DNA of 64,000 nt from Trichaptum fuscoviolaceum (Eukaryota; Basidiomycota; Agaricomycetes; Hymenochaetales; Trichaptaceae): contig CAJSYZ010000005.1 in assembly GCA_910574455.1 (NCBI GenBank), forward strand, positions 5,828,001 through 5,892,000, read 5' to 3'. Below the pieces are notes generated by a model. It was not told where the DNA came from and searched no databases. It saw only the letters and a list, made by a program, of their open reading frames with translations. Positions within the stretch are counted from its first letter, which is position 1. Every line of letters starts with the position of its first letter. The position numbers and the translations under genes were made by a program. Positions 6,308-57,104 of the stretch are shown here, piece after piece.

Positions 6308-9284
6308 TCAGCATCGTTCGAACACACGATATAGGTCCGGGAGGCTCGCTACTTGAATAACGTCACGATCCAACAGCGTTTTCGGAGCTGTGAGATACTT
6401 CCTCATACACGGGAATAGTACATGCTGAATCTGCCACCTTTCGGCTTTGTCACTTTGAGATCCTGCTTTAGACGAGTTAACCAATGGTCCCGGGCTAAAG
6501 AAATAGGCGAGCTCCCGCAGAAAAGTGCTAAAGCATTCTTCTTCTGACATCCAGTTCACCTGATCGATCGGAATAGGTAAATGTATGCGCTCAAATAAAA
6601 GGTGGTGAAGAATCACTTACCTGAGGCCCTAAGCGCATTAGAAAAAGGGGAAGTTTGTCCAGATTTGGTGTGTAATCTCTCAGAAGTAACGGTAGACTCT
6701 CGAGCTCGCCCATTTTGTTGATCTTCATGAAGAAGTACTCGTCCAGCATGTCCGCACGGTCGACGAGCTTGCTAACTATCCGCTACATTAAACCAAGATG
6801 TCAGCAGTTATCGTCACGCGGTGGGGTATCTCTTTACGTCAACTACTTCGCCCTCTTCAAGCTCCAGTCCACATTTCTTCCATCGTTCCTCCTCCGCTTG
6901 GACGGCGAGTTTTATCAGTTGTCGTATTGGAGGAGGGGGTTCAAGCTTCAGCCGTCGAAAGTTCCCAAACTGGCGTACACCCAGTTGGTAGAAAAGCTCT
7001 TCTCTGAAGTACGATTAACCTAAGAAGAAGAGTACGAATTGGACGAGTAGACGTACGCTAATGAAGCATGATTGACGAGATATAGCTTGGTCGAGTGCTG
7101 AAGTAAGGACAGGGACGGTCGTAAGTCTACAATCCCAACAAAGACATGCTGTTGCAAAATTTCAGTGAAATCTACAATGCATTCATCAACGATCGCAATT
7201 TTTTTGAAGATAATGTAGACTTTACGATTATGCTTTGCTTTCTGTATTTTCTTCCTTAGGTTATTTACGGATGTCAGGAAGCATTCCGATTCTTCGATCT
7301 CTTGCGCTTTGATCCATGTTGGCGACTGAGTTGCTGATTCAGGTATTTCCACCTCTTTTTCCTTGCCCTTTCGATATTTCGAATCCCCCTTCTCTGGCGG
7401 CGACGGCTGTGTTGACGGATGGAGAACAGGGAACATGGAATCTAGGGTACGATCCGCCTGCGACATGCGCACTTTGTCCTTCGAATACGTTTTCTTTGGT
7501 TCTGGTACCCCTTTCTGGACTGAAGGGATGGCAGACGTGGTTTCTTCCTCACCCTCACTTTCGCTACCCTCATCTTCTACTTGCATTGCCGCTTTCTCTT
7601 TGCCCTTGCTTGATGTCTTGATCGGTTCCAGCGTCCCTCCGGTCAGTAGTGTCTGAGTCTGCTATATGATGCGTTCATATTGATCATTGTCTCGAGCAGT
7701 GGGACCTTCAGAGCACACACCTGATACTCAAATACTCGTGATCGGCTTTGACCCGCAAGCTCAGTTTGAATCGTGTCGGCGACATGTTCTATGATCAGTT
7801 CTTCGTCAAGAAAGTGAACCTCGCGCTTCGTCGGATGCACATTCACATCAACCGCACGCGGATCTATCTCGAGGCTGGATATCTTTTTCAATTTGCTGAG
7901 ATAGAAGAGTGTATTATGCCTTACCTAAGATATATGAACGGAAAAGTTCCCTTAGGAAGGATCGCACTATACACACTCTCGAGTGCACGTTTAATGCGAG
8001 GTGATTCCACTAGGCGATCTGTAGAAGCATTAATGATAGTGACGAGCGAGGACGTGAAAATGGCGCACGTACGATTGATAAACAACAAGAATAGCATCTT
8101 CTTTGCATGGTAATTGGCGCTAGTAAAATGAGCTTCTCCCGTCCATTTTGTCTCTGTTTCCTTGGGAAGGTTGTTCTCGTCAACATCCATGTCCTCACCG
8201 TCCTCACCCTCGTCGTTGCCTTCTTTTCGTCTAGAGAAAGACACATTCAGAAGTTCTCGTGAAATGCTTTGCCCGTACAGGAGTCTGATGGCCTGCTTGA
8301 TTGTAGAGTTCGATGGCGTGGATATATCTGGACTCGGCGAACTAGCCTAGGGGAGAAAGAGCCTAGGTGAATATGGAGGACCACGCTCAGATGGAAAGGA
8401 CAGGAACCTTTTTGCATACGAACGACACAGAAGGGTTGTGCACTGCATATCGTGTTATAACATCAAGTATTCTAGAGTACTCTTCAGATGAGCTACGCAG
8501 AGCAGATTTCCGGGTTGGAATATTGTAGAAAAGATCTTCCACCTAAAGAAGACAAAGGACAAGTCAGAATAATTTATAAAGATTGTCAATATCCAGTGGA
8601 CATTCCCTACAGTTATTGTAGTCCCGTCATTCCCTGCGCAAGGTTTCGGGTCAGGCGTCTGACCAGGCTTGGGTGGTGTCAATGCACCATCAGAATAACA
8701 AGCTCTTAACTACGCTTCAGACAGACTGTGTGCAAGATCTTTAACTTGTAGCGCACCTCCAAGCGCAGCTGTCGGTTTTGGTTTTAGTAACAACGGAAAG
8801 GTGTGCGACGTGTGATATTGACGCAAGTGCTTCGCCACGGAAGCCATATGTTTTGATTTTCGATAAATCAGAAAATGAGGATAGTTTGGACGTCGTGAAG
8901 CGTTCCGCAAGGATAGGAAGATCATCTTTCTAGACAAAGTCGTTCAACTCTTGCACGCTCGAGCAGTTCAGTAAGGTGAAACAAACCCGAATACCACATC
9001 CATTATCTTGAATCTGCAGCAACTTCAAGCCACCATCCTTTATGGTTATTCTGATAGATGTCGCTCCCGCATCCAGACTATTCTCCAACAGTTCCTTCAG
9101 CGCCGAAGATGGCCTATGTATGATCTATGGCGGCAGAGAAAGTATATGTTTGTCAGGGAGCTTTATATGATTTGAAGCTCACCTCGCCGGCTGCTATACG
9201 GTTTATTACTGATTCTTGAAGGCGACGGATTGGCTGAGGTCCTAAAGACTCGAGTTCAGAGAAATCTGCGGCGGTTTGCGCCAT
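6308..9284 (-). CDS. MLH1: DNA mismatch repair protein MLH1
   Basis: Multi-exon gene read from the ATG at 9284 to a stop at 6308. The N-terminal GHKL ATPase motifs are visible: NRIAAGE (residues 28-34, Mg-binding Asn/Glu region), DNGCGI, FTTSKL and [20 protein letters not shown] follows in the transducer domain, then a low-complexity acidic linker, and a C-terminal domain ending in FERC, the conserved MLH1 end that in yeast and human supports the MLH1-PMS1 endonuclease site. The product acts in the nucleus as MutL-alpha with PMS1/PMS2. Introns are short, e.g. around 8930-8990 between DNGCGIR and [10 protein letters not shown] did not resolve every exon border. The gene is divergent from the CBS gene at 17182, and a 7.6-kb transposon block starts 65 bases upstream of its ATG. 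Confidence 0.92.
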
Positions 9285-9306
9285 GCCAGTGCCAGTGGTT
9301 GGAAGG

Positions 9307-9324
9307 ACGCGTCGCGACGCGAAA
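9307..9324. promoter_or_regulatory. G1/S-type box (MCB/E2F-like) in the MLH1 proximal promoter
   Basis: ACGCGTCGCGACGCGAAA contains the MluI cell-cycle box ACGCGT, a TCGCGA palindrome and an E2F/SBF-like CGCGAAA within 18 bases, 23-40 bases before the MLH1 start codon. MBF/E2F-type control of DNA repair genes is established in yeasts. Binding here is inferred. ACGCGT alone is common in this window; the compound site is less likely to be chance. Confidence 0.4.
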
Positions 9325-9349
9325 GTTGGCACTGAGACGGAAATAGCAT

Positions 9350-9359
9350 ACTATGTACT
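9350..9359. repeat. Left copy of 10-bp target-site duplication
   Basis: ACTATGTACT directly abuts the left terminal repeat. The right copy begins after the right terminal repeat (15593) but is cut by the mariner insertion: ACTATGTA at 15593-15600 and CT at 16940-16941. Removing the mariner and one of its TA duplicates restores the full ten bases. Confidence 0.85.
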
Positions 9360-9582
9360 CAGTCTCCTACCCAAACCCTCCCACGGTTCGGAAGAGGCCG
9401 AGGCCTCAGGGTCCAGGTAAAGTTGAGGGGGACCCATTTCCTCCCGTAGGGAGGGTCTGGCTTATAACATTTTAGCCGAGGCCCGACCATCGTCAGGGTC
9501 CTCCCCCGACCAACTTTGACTGTGGGATTGTCGGGGCCTTAGATAATTTTAGATAGTGTAATCTGTACACTAATTAGTAACT
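9360..9582 (+). repeat. Left terminal inverted repeat (223 bp)
   Basis: I compared this base by base with the reverse complement of 15370-15592 and found no difference. It contains internal short palindromes, e.g. GGCCGAGGCC near 9396 and a CCTCCCGTAGGGAGG hairpin near 9440. Confidence 0.92.
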
Positions 9583-9642
9583 TAAGCAATTTTGCGTGCC
9601 AGTGTTCAGCTTCAGACTTCAAATCCTTGTGGAGGGTGGCAT

Positions 9643-12512
9643 ATGGTCATGCCTGCCGGTCAGGCTGGACTGCTTGCCACCATAACTTCATATTCATATT
9701 CTCAAATTGAAACTCTATCCTACGACAACACTACCGTAATTGAAGTCCGGTCGCTATGCGAAGCGGTTCTGCGCACATCCCCGTGTCTCTGGCAGATTCG
9801 CGCCGCATTCGCTATCCTGAAGGGAGAAAAGGATGTCATTTGTGTTGCTCGGACAGGAGCAGGGAAGTCTTTGACTTTTTACTTACCTTTGCTTGTCCGA
9901 ATGGAGGGAATCATCATAATCGTCGTCCCACTGAACGCGCTAGCCTCTGAAATGGCTTCGCGGCTGACTGCCATGGGACTCGCAGCCATTGCATTGACTG
10001 CATCAACTTCTAAAGAACTAAATTATACTGTGAGTCTTTTTATGATAAAGAAGTAATTAAAAAGACTTACATTTTTACCAGGAAATCGCGAAATTCAAGT
10101 ACCGTGTCATCATCACGAACCCCGAGACGATGCTCGAAAAAAATGGCCGGTTCCTGAAAATTTTAAGGAATCAGTCATTTGCTCGGAAGATTATTGCTAT
10201 AATAATTGATGAAGCTCACTGCGTGGTTAACTGGGGTTCTTTCCGACCCGAGTATCGAGAACTGGGCTTACTCCGTTATAATATTCCACCTTCCGTGCCA
10301 CTCTACGTTGTCTCGGCAACATTACCACCGGTTCTCATGCGCGACGTGCGCAAGCTTCTTCAGGTCCGGCCCAAACCCTACGAAGAAGTAATGTCAAATG
10401 ATCGCCCAAATGTGGCGATAATGGTCCGAAGGATTACTTACCCATTAAACACCTTTTGGGACCTCTCGTTCTTGGTACCGGAGGGTTGGACACCTGCAGA
10501 TGAAAAGCCATTGTTATTTCTTGCTATCTTTGATAGCATTAATGTCTTACAGAAAGCCCTCGAATTTCTTCGCAGTCGCTTGCCCGTAGAACACCACGAT
10601 ATGATACTCCCCTTCCATTCCGAAATGACGGATGAACACCGGCTCGAAGTAATATCCCTCATGAAGGAAGGCAAGATCTTGGGTGTCTGTGCCTCCGAGG
10701 GATTCGGCCTGGTAAGTGATTCTATTAAAATCAAGTATTAAAAACGCTAATTAAATCAAAAAAAAGGGAATTGACGTACCTGGTATTGGTGTCGTTGTCC
10801 AATGGCGCGCCAACAAGGTCGATTTTTGCACTTTATCCCAACGCTTTGGGCGCGCGGCAAGAGATCCTAATATTCAAGGAATCGGCCTCTTGCTTGTCGA
10901 GCCAACGCTAGATGTCGACGAGGAGGACGAGGACATTCCTGGGAGAAGACCAAAAAAGCGCAAAAAGCGTCAGACAGGTCCTGGCAAGGCAAAACGAAGG
11001 AGAGTCTTACATACCGAAGCAGTACCAGCTCCACAAGACACATCCAGGCTTGATTCTCCGATACCAATGGCGACGCAAGTGGAACCAACTCAGTCAGAAG
11101 AGGGATTGGGCCCACAAGACACATCCTCGCAGGACACATTGGTGCCAGGTGAGGGAGATTTGCAGGAGGGCTTGACGCAGGATGCTCATGCCCCCGTGGT
11201 GAGCCAGGCAGAGATGGACGAGGACGACGATGAAGTAGAAGCCACTGTCAGTGACCCTGTTGTTACAAGCCAAGGCAATGGAACCGACTCACCGGGTTCT
11301 GATGACCTTGAGGCCCTGTGGGAGGAGTACTTTGCATGGTGGGACCAGCAAAGCTCATCAAATCGAGTCCCTGGCATCGAACCAGCTCTGCGAGACCTCA
11401 TTAAGGGTATATCGTCAGCGTTGAAATGTCGTCGCATTCCTTGGAAGGTGTTCTTCTCAAGGACTAAAGAATTAGGTAAGCTTTTGATCTTGGAGATGAT
11501 CGGTTTGATGGATTATCTCACACGTAAATCAATAGCTTCTATTCTCACTAACTGCGGTTTACCCACACCCATCTGCCGCCCACCCAATGAGGGACCTTGC
11601 CTTCGTTGTCAGCCTCCACCCTCTCAATTCTGTTGCGACAAGGATACGCCTGAGCTCCTCAATTTACTGCCCGAAGTAGAGCCTCGCACATTTCCCAAGC
11701 GACCCTCCCGCAGCAAAATTCCAGCGAAGTCGTATATGCCTGGACCAAAGGAGGAGGAGTTGACGGCGGCGCTGGAGGCGTGGAGGGATCGGGCCGCGGT
11801 GCAATGGCTGTCGCCTGAGCACCGAGACCTTCATGGAGGGGCCGCGGTCATGTCCAACAAAGTGCTGAAGAGCATCGTCAAGTACGCGTCGGTTGGCAAG
11901 ATCAAGTCCATAGAGAACTTGAGACGAGAGACTCAGTGGAGTCGTTCGAATAGATACGGTGCAGAAGTCCTCGATTTAATTAAGGATTTACTCCCACATC
12001 ATTTCGACAACTCTGCGAGGCTTGACAACGTCGGCCCAGTCCCTCTGGGTGACTCCACTACTCGTTTGAATGACGGTGGTGTCAATTTGGTGAGTTCCTT
12101 CAAGTGTTGTGAAGCTTGTTGCATGATCTCCGATCGCGTTCAACGCGGACTCAACTCAGTCATCGATGCGCATTGCTATGAAGGAGATCATGCAATAAGC
12201 TTCCATATCATACCCTAGGACTTATGCTGTATCTCAGGTTCAAACGGGCGCGCAGGAGCCTCCTGCTGGGCCTTCTATGGTAGCCCAAGCTGGATCGCGG
12301 AGTGTGACGGTCTCGAAGCGAGTCAAGAAGGGCAATAATAAATGTTCACTCTGTGGATCGCCGGACCATATCAGTGAGTTTAGTTCTTTTTTAAAACGAG
12401 AACGCACAAGTCTGACTCAACGACACCAGAATCAAAGTGTTGTCCTCTTTATGGCGAGCACATTGCTAATAAGGAGAACAATGGTACACCTGCCGGGCCT
12501 TCAGGGAATTGA
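9643..12512 (+). CDS. RecQ-like SF2 helicase with C-terminal zinc knuckle, transposon-borne
   Basis: Five exons (9643-10029, 10082-10711, 10767-12089, 12238-12373, 12430-12512) join in frame to 852 residues. Helicase motifs in order are Walker A TGAGKS (71-76), DEAH (172-175, context IIDEAHCVVNWG), SAT (207-209), GFGLGID spanning the exon 2/3 join, and motif VI QRFGRAARD (364-372). The DEAHC and motif V-VI arrangement is that of the RecQ group. A basic NLS-like run (PKKRKKR) and an acidic Ser/Gln-rich linker follow, then a conserved-looking region (about 600-780) and a CCHC zinc knuckle (Cys816, Cys819, His824, Cys829). The family unwinds DNA 3'-5'; here it probably serves transposition or copying of the element, by inference from its location. 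The first in-frame ATG, 60 bases inside the left repeat, was taken as start. Confidence 0.85.
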
Positions 12513-12617
12513 CTATTTCGATCTCTTCCATAGTACACTAACGCAACCTTCGACTGTTATATAAATTATTATTATTATTGTAGATAGACAATCTTATGTT
12601 ATAGACACATTTTTATT
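12513..12617. other. Short convergent spacer between the two transposon genes
   Basis: These 105 bases separate the two stop codons. The run is A/T-rich with ATT repeats (about 12562-12580) and probably holds both 3' ends. No gene is seen. Confidence 0.5.
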
Positions 12618-15295
12618 TTAATCAATATCAATTCCGTTGTTCAAATCATCTTCGTCAAAATGTGTGAGCGTCTCTGGTTCCCCGTTGTCTGCATCAAGCT
12701 CCCCTTCCACTCCCTTCTCCTCGATGATATCGAATCCGGCTTCAAATGCGTCTACAATTTCTTTGACGGAGCTTCGACCTAGCCGCTCCTTAAATAGACC
12801 GTTAGAGTGAAAATAATCGACCATTGCTGTATATGTCTTCGACATATCCGGTTCTCCGTGTTTGACAGTTTGCTGGCCCAGTAAAAAAACAGATTCGATT
12901 GAGGTCATGACATTTTGATACACCTGAATTAACGAGGACTCCTTAATGATTCGATCAATTGTCCTGTTAGACCCTTTCCCCCCATAGACAACCTGCACAT
13001 AATAATTATATTTCAGACATATCAAATTGTGCAACTCAATGAAAGCCGAACCTTTGTATATAGGTTGTTCAATTCTACAACCCAATCATTTCCTTGAAAT
13101 TTCCCTTCCTTTCCAGATAGATTACACAATGTGCTTCGTCGAATGGCATTTCTGTAATTATTTAAATCATTAATAATATGCTATAAATGCCGGATGCACT
13201 CACTTTAGTGGCCCGGGATAAACAAAATGGACGTTTAGGAAGAATGTCGTCAAATGAGAAGCATACTTATGTTTCCCTACGGCTCGAAAGGCTGGTATCC
13301 AGTCGATTAGACAACGCTCTAGTCTACCAATGTCCCCCCAGTTCATTGCGTAGATAGTCTCTTCATATAATAGCATATAGTAGTTCCGAAACATAGTATT
13401 TTCGAGTTCGACATCTCGGAGAGACTCGCTAGGTGAATGCTTGCGCTTGCGAATGTTCTCTGCACTGAAATGTGTTCGAACCAATTGATGTGACATTGCG
13501 ACAAGGTCCTCCCAAGTAAACTGCAGTGTAAATCGAGCATTGAACGCTTGATCCTCAAGATCGGACCAAATTGTTGCTCCAAATCTATCCTCCATCGTGG
13601 TACGCCAAGCTGTAAGTCGTTCAGTAATTCCGAGATGCTTTAAAAAGCGTTTCATTTGCTGATAGGTTGGTGGGCCTTTTATTAGCTTGGTTACATCTTT
13701 TGTACGGGGACACAGGAATTTTGTTGCATTGACGGCACAGGTAGGGTCTCTTTCCGTCCCCGATGCAAACGGTCGAATTAATAGTCTCCAAAGCATATCC
13801 ACTAATGCCATCTTGACGTGGAACATTCCCGGTACGAATATGATATGAAATAGAGTGTTCCAGAGTCGTAGTTCCATTGCTCGGCGGCGCCGACCAGTAT
13901 CTACGCGCTCGCCCGTACCCAGATCCCCGGAGATAATAAGTACATATTCAGATATGTTCGGAGGCTCGCCAGATACTGGCGTGTCTTCAGGGGAATGTCG
14001 ACCTATCCCCCCTTGCTTTAACATGTCTTCAATTGCATTTATATTCCCCGCAACCGACGAGTTATCGTGCTGTGTAGCTTGTACAGGCACTTGGTCGGTC
14101 TTCCGGATTGGAAGCTGCTCGACGGTCTCTGGTGTTCCTACCCTGGACCGGAACTGATGAAAGAAGAGAGGCCCATGTGTACATATAATGTTTCGGAGTG
14201 TCCATGCAAAAAAACGCTGGTGCAGATTTAATCCATGTGCATCGAGTTGCCCGGAGTAGATTGACAACAAATCGAAATAATCTCGGTGGACCTCCCCTTG
14301 ATGGTCTACTCTATCATTGTAGGGATCACGGTCCCGCAGTTCTTTTGCATAGCGTAGCTCCTCTGTAGTGTAATGGTGATTGATGTAAGTTCCGGTTGTG
14401 AGATTATACAGCGAACGTAGTGATGTCTCGACTGTAGATTGAGTCGGCGATCCGAAATCAATGACAAGGTTGTCATAGGCCAGCATATATTTCAAGCTCT
14501 GTGCGGCCGCTCGGATAGCCTGTTGGGACTCGGTGGCCAACGACTGAACCATGTCATTAATTGATGGAACAGAGGCAGACAGTCCGATCTGAGCCATCGT
14601 GTGTATAGCCCTCTGAGCAGCGCCGCTTGCGTGTAAAAAAAGCCCTATATTATTTGCGAATAGATTGCACTTCTGATTGTGTATCCGTGCAATAGCAGTA
14701 ATAAAGCATACCGCCCTCTACAGTGAAAGCGAGTGAAATAAGTACATATTCAAAAAAGAGAGATTTAATAAATGAATTGACATACAAGCTCACGAAGCTT
14801 GGCTACTCGATCTAGCCCTCTATCCGATGTCGGATCTCCTTCGATCGACTGATCACCCGGCCATTCAATTTCAGTTTTGGATGCATCGCTTTTGCACAGA
14901 ATCCGATCAAAAAAAGCCCATAGATTTGGTGCAACGAATTTCGCAGTATTTGCTATCGATCTAGCTTCGAGAGACTCAAACTGCTCGATACGTGCATTTT
15001 GTGCATTCCCATGCCACCCAGTTGATACGTGGGTGAGTCGATTGACATCTTCTATCATATATTCCGATGCATAGTGGCTGATCCACTGACGGGTCCCTCC
15101 AGAACAAATGAAATGCAGTCGAAATGCGTTCAAAATGGTAAACAGGTTCGAGGCAAGGTCGTTTACGGCGTTTAAGCCCACAGAATCGAGCTCTTCGGGT
15201 TTCGGAAGAAGAAGAGATAGTATTAGATCTGATAGCTTCAAATCTAAACTATCGAGACTTGCGAGGACAGTGAGGACATTTCTTGCGAGATGCAT
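12618..15295 (-). CDS. DUF6589-like protein, candidate transposase
   Basis: Four exons (15295-14786, 14717-13204, 13151-13052, 12992-12618) join with correct phases to 832 residues. The order of blocks matches what I know of DUF6589 proteins, common and repeated in agaricomycetes: an N-terminal all-alpha region; a CNLFANNIGLFLHASGA block (about 187-203); YDN..IDF (Asp252); a central SGDLGTGERVD block (Asp435); PGMFHVKMALVDMLWR (His470, Asp477); and a C-terminal LSGKEG...LNNLYTK region with an acidic tail. Function of the family is not established. The spaced Asp/His residues could form an RNase H-like active site (inference). Being the only other gene between the terminal repeats makes it the best transposase candidate. 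No frameshift or stop was found. Confidence 0.78.
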
Positions 15296-15369
15296 AATAG
15301 CAGTGCATATAGTGAGGCATTTATTTGCAAGTTAAAATTAAGGTGCGTCGATCAGCTTCGATTTCACAC

Positions 15370-15592
15370 AGTTACTAATTAGTGTACAGATTACACTATC
15401 TAAAATTATCTAAGGCCCCGACAATCCCACAGTCAAAGTTGGTCGGGGGAGGACCCTGACGATGGTCGGGCCTCGGCTAAAATGTTATAAGCCAGACCCT
15501 CCCTACGGGAGGAAATGGGTCCCCCTCAACTTTACCTGGACCCTGAGGCCTCGGCCTCTTCCGAACCGTGGGAGGGTTTGGGTAGGAGACTG
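15370..15592 (-). repeat. Right terminal inverted repeat (223 bp)
   Basis: This is the reverse complement of 9360-9582 with no difference seen by eye. The first 20 or so bases (GGGTAGGAGACTG end) are shared with the miniature element at 57019. Confidence 0.92.
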
Positions 15593-15600
15593 ACTATGTA
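15593..15600. repeat. Right target-site duplication, first part, split by mariner
   Basis: ACTATGTA is the first eight bases of the ten-base duplication. Its last two bases (CT) lie at 16940-16941 on the far side of the mariner. The TA at 15599-15600 is also the mariner's left TA duplicate. Confidence 0.82.
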
Positions 15601-16937
15601 CAGCGGGTTACCAAAAATGATCGTCACATGTCACACAATGTCACAAATCTTCGTACAGGCTTCACAGTAATATGTTAGTAGCTTATATTTTTGCATCATA
15701 ATAAAGCATGTAATTTCACAATTGGATACATGAGATCATACAGTACATCATAGCATAGAAAGTATTGCATTAAAATCGAGTTGGTCCACCATGTGCTCCA
15801 ATTACTGCATGCACTCGATCAGGCATGCTAAAGACACATCTGTTGATATCATCTGCTGAAATGCTATTCCAAGCCTCCTGACAAGCGATCTTCAGCTGAG
15901 ATATGGAAGTAGGGGTGCGAGGCTGTGATCTGATGCGATATTTGAAGAGGCTCCATATGTTCTCCAGAGGACTGAGATCAGGAGAAGTGGGTGGATGTGG
16001 AAAGAGATGGATTTGGTTACGTTTAAACCAGTTTAGGGTTTTTTTCGCCACATGACATCGAGCATTGTCTTGCTGAAAGAACATAAAGCTTCTGCTGGTC
16101 CTAAGCTTCTTGAAGAAATCAAGAACAGGTCCATCAAGCACTTGTTCAGTGTATCGGTCGGCCGTCATTCCTCCACCCTTTCCTCCGGGGAAATCGAGTA
16201 AAACTAGAGGACCTCGCTGGCTATCGGCAATGCAGGACCAAACCATGACCTTTATGGTTGATTGTCTGAATGTTGGTATAACACATTCATTGTCATACTT
16301 CTCGTCTTCTGATCGTGTCACATATACAGGGCCCTTGTTGTCACCAACATAGACATAGCATTCATCTGACCATATCACATGGCGCCAATGAAACTTTGTC
16401 CAATGCTTATACCGACGCGCCCAAGCGAGCCGCTGACGTTTATGAGCCCTGCTGATGTAGGGCTTTCGTTGCGCCCTCCTCCGGTGCAGTCCGAATGCTG
16501 CTAGTTCTCGACGAACAGTGCTTTCGTGCACTTTTGGCTCCGTTAACTGGCCAAGTCTTGCAAGCGAGAGTTTTCGCTGTTTCTTGGCCTCAAACTTCAA
16601 GTGTCTGCGAGAGCGGTCACTGAGCTTCTTCTTTCGCCCACTTCGAGGCCGATTGTGAGTTGTGCCATTTTTTAGGTATCGTTGCCAGAGTGATTGACAA
16701 GTGGTTCTTTTGACACCAAAAAGTCGAGCCGCTTCGGAATTTTTTTTTCCAGCACAGATAGCACCAACAATCCGATTCTTTAATGGAGAGTCAAGTTCAG
16801 ATCTTTGAGTCTTAAGACGAGCCATAGTGGGTGCAAGAGGTAGAGCGAAGAAGGACAGAAACACGAAGCAAAAGTCGTGTTCACCGCGAGTTTAGCGTGA
16901 CATGTGACATGTGACGATCATTTTTGGTAACCCGCTG
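15601..16937. mobile_element. Tc1/mariner element (1,337 bp) nested in the larger element's target duplication
   Basis: Inverted repeats of 35 bases beginning CAGCGGGTTACC (15601-15635 and 16903-16937) are flanked by TA on both sides (15599-15600, 16938-16939). It encodes one intact transposase on the minus strand. It entered a TA inside the right-hand 10-bp duplication, so it arrived after the 6.2-kb element. Confidence 0.95.
15770..16825 (-). CDS. Tc1/mariner transposase, DD34E
   Basis: A single exon of 351 residues from the ATG at 16825; in-frame sequence upstream has no ATG. The N-terminal helix-turn-helix (about residues 12-50, ending in a basic NRPRSGR GRPR-like motif at 58-64) and a second HTH (70-120) bind the inverted repeats in this family. 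The catalytic triad is visible: Asp154 (WSDECY), Asp253 (QQDNARCH) and Glu288 (LSPLENIW), with 34 residues between the second Asp and the Glu, the Tc1 spacing. The enzyme cuts and pastes at TA. No stop or frameshift is present, so it may be active. Confidence 0.95.
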   Translation of the reverse strand: MARLKTQRSELDSPLKNRIVGAICAGKKNSEAARLFGVKRTTCQSLWQRYLKNGTTHNRPRSGRKKKLSDRSRRHLKFEAKKQRKLSLARLGQLTEPKVHESTVRRELAAFGLHRRRAQRKPYISRAHKRQRLAWARRYKHWTKFHWRHVIWSDECYVYVGDNKGPVYVTRSEDEKYDNECVIPTFRQSTIKVMVWSCIADSQRGPLVLLDFPGGKGGGMTADRYTEQVLDGPVLDFFKKLRTSRSFMFFQQDNARCHVAKKTLNWFKRNQIHLFPHPPTSPDLSPLENIWSLFKYRIRSQPRTPTSISQLKIACQEAWNSISADDINRCVFSMPDRVHAVIGAHGGPTRF

Positions 16938-16941
16938 TACT

Positions 16942-57008: not shown

Positions 57009-57104
57009 GCCTGAGAGGCTGTCTCCTACCCAAACCCTCCCACGGTTCGTAAGAGGCTCGGCCTCTTACTACTACGAACCGTGGGACTGCCAGTGCCTGA
57101 GAGG
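57009..57104. mobile_element. 76-bp miniature relative of the 6.2-kb element, with 10-bp direct repeats
   Basis: GCCTGAGAGG occurs at 57009-57018 and 57095-57104. Between them, 57019-57049 matches the first 31 bases of the large element's terminal repeat with one difference (CTGTCTCC for CAGTCTCC). The right side repeats CCCACGGTTCG inverted and ends GGGACTG plus five bases (CCAGT) before the direct repeat. The core (about 57039-57086) folds into a near-perfect hairpin. It looks like an internally deleted, non-autonomous copy. Confidence 0.75.

Follow-up and report, generated by a model that had tools for sequence, protein, structure and literature searches.

A two-gene DNA transposon, very probably of AcademH type, pairs a RecQ-like helicase with a DUF6589 protein as likely transposase in Trichaptum fuscoviolaceum

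The window analysed here, a stretch of 64,000 nucleotides of the basidiomycete Trichaptum fuscoviolaceum (contig CAJSYZ010000005.1, positions 5,828,001 to 5,892,000), carries at 9360-15592 a two-gene element of 6,233 bp bounded by terminal inverted repeats (TIRs). We conclude that this element is very probably the recent insertion of an AcademH-type cut-and-paste DNA transposon that appears to be autonomous and in which the DUF6589 protein would serve as DDE (Asp-Asp-Glu) transposase. On the tested features the element is an AcademH, by described traits and not by transposase sequence, and its group appears to have been described already. What the present analysis contributes is the assignment of DUF6589, its predicted fold, a proposed D252/D435/E701 triad, and a swarm of short gene-less relatives, the miniature inverted-repeat transposable elements (MITEs). 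DUF6589 found no mention in the literature that was searched, so its link to Academ-type transposons may be unreported; the original description of AcademH may show the same protein without the DUF6589 name.

The anatomy of the element is simple. Over 227 nt, the arms 9356-9582 and 15370-15596 are complementary without a mismatch, and because four of these bases are flank bases that pair by coincidence, the TIR length was set to 223 bp. Between the repeats lie a helicase gene and a DUF6589 gene, arranged tail to tail; together they fill the element, and no third gene was seen inside it. All seven introns as drawn are GT..AG and neither gene has an internal stop, the splice sites having been picked by eye from the genomic sequence alone. 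The features, in window coordinates and amino acids (aa), are:

9350-9359, no strand: left target-site duplication, ACTATGTACT, by direct reading
9360-9582, plus strand: left TIR, 223 bp, 100% complementary to 15370-15592
9643-10029, 10082-10711, 10767-12089, 12238-12373 and 12430-12512, plus strand: gene of a RecQ-like helicase of superfamily 2 (SF2), 852 aa, 5 exons, all open, with one terminal stop
15295-14786, 14717-13204, 13151-13052 and 12992-12618, minus strand: DUF6589 gene, 832 aa, 4 exons, proposed DDE transposase from the PF20231 match and the predicted fold
15370-15592, minus strand: right TIR, 223 bp, from its complementarity to the left arm
15593-15600, no strand: first 8 bases of the right target-site duplication, ACTATGTA, the remaining CT being at 16940-16941

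The right duplication reads ACTATGTA, then a Tc1/mariner insertion with its duplicated TA, then CT; once the mariner and the extra TA are set aside, the two flanks of the window copy match exactly over 10 bp. Both the two-gene transposon with identical 223-bp repeats and open exons and its 10-bp duplication were thus as the original prediction, made from this stretch of DNA, had described them.

The terminal 223 bp were searched across the organism's own genome (59.1 Mb in 12 contigs, each labelled C with a number), a step that the original prediction had proposed. The left TIR has at least 74 matches (40 of 134 candidates scored); a further genome search scored 55 of 71 candidates, and all copy numbers are lower bounds. 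Most matches pair up, giving 32 MITE-like copies of 390-526 bp, a length that leaves no room for the two genes or for another transposase gene. Exact 9-bp duplications flank 33 of the 38 two-ended copies counted besides that of the window, a set made up of 34 copies of the window element's family (including a two-gene copy at C11:1811891-1817924 and one copy interrupted by another) and four of a second family. As a control, each left flank was compared with the right flanks of the other copies, and none of these 1,406 comparisons gave an exact 9-bp match. Duplications of 4-8 and 10-13 bp were found in none of the 38 copies, one of 3 bp was found once, and a strong base preference was not seen across the 33 duplication sites. 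The family norm is a 9-bp duplication and the 10 bp of the window copy is the exception: the expectation that copies are flanked by 10-bp repeats holds for the window copy and gives way to 9 bp in the 33 others.

The five copies without an exact 9-bp duplication comprise two with decayed ends (C4:691077 and C11:3477517), one that matches at 8 of 9 positions (C5:5133695) and two with no match (C5:6538787 and C11:2208655). The count excluded the window copy (10 bp), C7:1794680-1837705, C5:4452194-4458074, the one-ended copies C1:5444855, C8:3426303, C4:1993770, C8:3672135, C2:768007 and C1:5457290, as well as minor additional fragments; where BLAST had started within the repeat, the ends were extended by hand, four of them in three copies (C4:691077, C3:979216, and C11:3477517 with 3478023). 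One MITE is nested within another, with CCCTACGGG flanking the inner copy on both sides; when the outer MITE is rejoined with one repeat kept, it measures 519 bp and is 89% identical end to end with an intact 518-bp copy, without a gap at the join. In a copy of the element at C7:1794680-1837705, some 37 kb of other DNA separates the two parts of the helicase gene; the ends are kept and no duplication match was found. Within the window, a lone 37-bp piece at 57021-57057, 97% identical to TIR bases 3-39, is probably a remnant end.

A second family carries the same gene pair between different ends. Its two-gene copies at C1:327782-333695, C7:5740742-5746650 and C9:2119425-2125338 share a 251-bp end, CATCCTCCTTCCC..., and the two-gene copy at C3:979405-985816 has a related end of about 410 bp; the outer tip of the TIR, 5'-CAGTCTCC... 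in the window element, has CATCCTCC as its counterpart here. All four copies have an exact 9-bp duplication, their outer limits having been located by trying shifts and the duplications then counted at fixed limits. The C1 and C7 copies are 99.4% identical across 5.9 kb, so this family has likewise moved recently, and with 40 of 49 candidates scored its end was matched at least 43 times in the genome. Another of its copies, at C5:4452095-4458074 (also bounded as 4452194-4458074), has rearranged ends, with the TIR tip reversed beside an inner TIR piece, and shows no duplication. C7:3733005-3737615 and C4:4574287-4578963, equal in frame length and stop counts, perhaps represent another DUF6589-helicase family.

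The two genes travel together. PF20231, the Pfam model of DUF6589, has 42 matches in the genome, grouped in 23 clusters, and at 19 of these a helicase gene stands in convergent orientation within 5 kb; random placement of the genes gave a mean of 0.03 pairings and a maximum of 1 in 2,000 trials. The four unpaired clusters are a fragment 11 kb from a paired locus, one with a helicase 12.7 kb off, one with a same-strand helicase at 5.8 kb, and one with none listed. Nine of the 28 helicase clusters are without such a pairing; one of them belongs to the split C7 copy, as its far half, and some may be host RecQ genes. This linkage supports a two-gene transposon whose genes travel as a pair; copies that have the TIRs and neither gene also occur, among them the 32 short paired ones.

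The helicase matches PF00270 (DEAD, E 2.1e-23) and PF00271 (Helicase_C, E 1.9e-8), and its nearest solved structures in the PDB are RecQ, BLM and WRN. Its score against TIGR00614 recQ_fam (E 1e-40, 139.9 bits) lies under the model cut-off of 219.8, and we therefore call it RecQ-like and not a standard RecQ. Beyond the helicase core the protein is cysteine-rich for a stretch, and it has a CCHC knuckle close to the C-terminus.

The DUF6589 protein matches PF20231 with E 8e-83. Pfam scans of its exons, the whole protein, four relatives and 64 aligned sequences returned PF20231 and otherwise weak, scattered matches, with no transposase family among them (for the 64 members, E <= 1 and 25 of 28 families listed), and an NCBIfam scan of exon 2 gave no match. 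A profile of 119 DUF6589 sequences found one match among PDB sequences, at E 1.4. Relatives are present in many mushroom-forming fungi: in one search that scored 7,997 candidates, 289 reached E <= 0.001 (the best 120 of the 289 listed), and viral and prokaryotic contigs, each covered by a single pattern scan, yielded no confirmed relative. The fold is predicted with confidence, as an RNase H-like core with a helical insertion like that of P-element, hAT and RAG1 proteins. Because plain Foldseek gave weak results, above E 0.001, VIA-align was used as a second look, and DDE recombinases (P element, Hermes, ISCth4 and RAG1) ranked at the top, with modest Z scores of up to 8.4. This nearest resemblance makes DUF6589 the likely recombinase of the element, a role that is well supported at the level of predicted fold, although with modest scores; the original prediction had suggested this role for DUF6589 and a search for an RNase H-like fold. 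The candidate active site consists of three codons:

14472-14474, minus strand: D252 (YDN), proposed first catalytic Asp, within the first strand of the predicted fold
13923-13925, minus strand: D435 (SGDLG), proposed second catalytic Asp, just past a strand of the predicted fold
13073-13075, minus strand: E701 (DWxxE), proposed catalytic Glu, placed from the alignment ends

The VIA alignments end with P0045 residue 763 opposite Hermes 609, 762 opposite P element 566 and 774 opposite RAG1 1008, which, assuming that the final alignment stretch is free of gaps, places E726 of P0045 at about 572 in Hermes, 530 in the P element and 960 in RAG1. We take the catalytic glutamates of these proteins to be E572, E531 and E962, respectively, and E701 was picked because the alignment ends set the DWxxE glutamate beside these presumed positions.

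The anatomy and the fold, from which we infer the whole mechanism, are consistent with a process in which 1) the 832-aa DUF6589 protein, as DDE transposase, would bind and pair the 223-bp inverted repeats; 2) it would excise the element through an RNase H-like D-D-E site (candidates D252, D435 and E701) with a helical insertion domain; 3) the ends would be joined to target strands 9 bp apart, occasionally 10; 4) gap repair would produce the target-site duplication; 5) the 852-aa helicase, with a 3'-5' activity presumed from its family, might help to open the ends or to process or repair the excision site; and 6) both proteins would presumably mobilise the gene-less MITEs in trans. The element may be active at present.

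How firmly the element belongs to AcademH has to be weighed against other readings. DUF6589 could be a DDE transposase with no special relation to Academ, in a distinct superfamily whose helicase and duplication length are convergent. Two points weigh against our assignment here: the kinship with Academ is drawn from described traits, and no transposase family stands among the 25 Pfam families listed for the 64 members. Yet the helicase class and the 9- or 10-bp duplication agree with what the relevant passages report of AcademH and fungal Academ (PMC10045372, PMC10799480, PMC6416283), and we regard a distinct superfamily as unlikely. There is a similarly slim chance that DUF6589 is the catalytic subunit of its own DDE superfamily beside Academ, with a helical-insertion site like those of P, hAT and RAG and with a paired RecQ-like helicase that transposition requires. 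The separate new transposon group suggested by the original prediction was not supported: a passage of PMC10045372 already describes, as AcademH, transposons that encode a helicase and duplicate 9 or 10 bp of the target.

It is very improbable that the element is a Mutator-like element (MULE) whose transposase has diverged too far for Pfam. Long TIRs with 9-11-bp duplications are MULE-like, and ISCth4, which we take to be an IS256-type transposase, is listed in the fold search; however, the P element and Hermes rank above it, and the MULE transposase domain is absent both from the 25 of 28 Pfam families listed for the 64 members and from the matches of the 832-aa protein, as had been predicted. 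MULEs are not known to bring a helicase partner. We are equally doubtful that both genes are passengers of a non-autonomous element with an unseen transposase, DUF6589 having another role: many copies do lack both genes, but the pair recurs across families with different ends, fills the element, and includes a predicted fold of the DDE recombinase type. Kolobok elements duplicate TTAA, which was found in none of the 38 counted copies. Membership of KolobokH, the fungal Kolobok lineage, deserves almost no credence: according to the passage in PMC9587614 it is a fungi-only DNA transposon with a RecQ helicase, in this resembling our element, but there the helicase follows downstream of the transposase domain; in our family a gene of its own, convergent with the DUF6589 gene, encodes the helicase, and the duplications are of 9 bp.

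The mariner that interrupts the right duplication is a separate feature:

15601-16937, minus strand: Tc1/mariner insertion, 1,337 bp, foreign to the element, TA duplicated, with Pfam HTH_Tnp_Tc3_2 and DDE_3

Its insertion point is precisely the TA within the 10-bp duplication, and it is a later arrival than the two-gene element. It has an open stretch of 373 codons, and three full-length copies, that of the window included, share 99-100% identity in the genome. On the other side of the element, at 8710-9350 on the minus strand, lies a probable MutL/MLH1-like mismatch-repair gene; one of three scanned reading frames matches Pfam HATPase domains, and the MLH1 label is our presumption from motifs. 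Its likely start codon is near 9284, about 75 bp from the left end of the element, and the transposon may therefore occupy the promoter region of this gene.

The large fungal family DUF6589 gains a useful new label from these results. Annotations can be revised to match: a gene that carries its name is likely to encode a transposase, and a RecQ-like neighbour can be labelled a transposon helicase instead of a repair gene of the host. With a very clean 9-bp signature, ends that are identical, MITEs nested in one another and genes that are open, these elements also offer a workable system in which to ask why a cut-and-paste transposon carries a helicase.

Among known systems, the P element and hAT (Hermes) resemble DUF6589 in the predicted RNase H-like core with a helical insertion and in the DWxxE glutamate near the presumed position of the catalytic one, but DUF6589 has no sequence match to either. 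Both duplicate 8 bp, and we know of no helicase gene in them; here the duplications are of 9 or 10 bp, and neither a hAT transposase or dimerisation domain nor a P-type transposase is among the Pfam matches listed, though Hermes is similar in fold and the P element is the closest. Pfam includes a KDZ model, and the KDZ transposase domain is likewise not among the matches listed. Fungal Academ elements share with ours a DEAD/DEAH helicase (PF00270) with recQ_fam; the account of them in PMC6416283 gives DEAD-box and recQ_fam domains, frequently annotated as host genes, and in that account DUF6589 and target-site duplications go unmentioned. AcademH, the Academ DNA transposons that encode a helicase, is credited to Kojima (2020, Mobile DNA 11:15) in passages of PMC10045372 and PMC10799480. 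The former, the IS481EU paper, gives duplications of 9 or 10 bp for AcademH and 3 or 4 bp for AcademX and ties them to the encoded helicase and nuclease; the latter calls AcademH low-copy, in Basidiomycota, Ascomycota and Mucoromycota, whereas here the gene pair occurs at 19 loci and the MITE-like copies with paired ends number at least 32. Membership at the level of sequence is presumed; within the published descriptions consulted, none of the tested features differs. The element combines a transposase with an SF2 helicase (DEAD and Helicase_C), a DDD/E transposase at the level of predicted fold, TIRs of 223 bp in the window and of about 251 and 410 bp in the second family, and duplications of both 9 and 10 bp.
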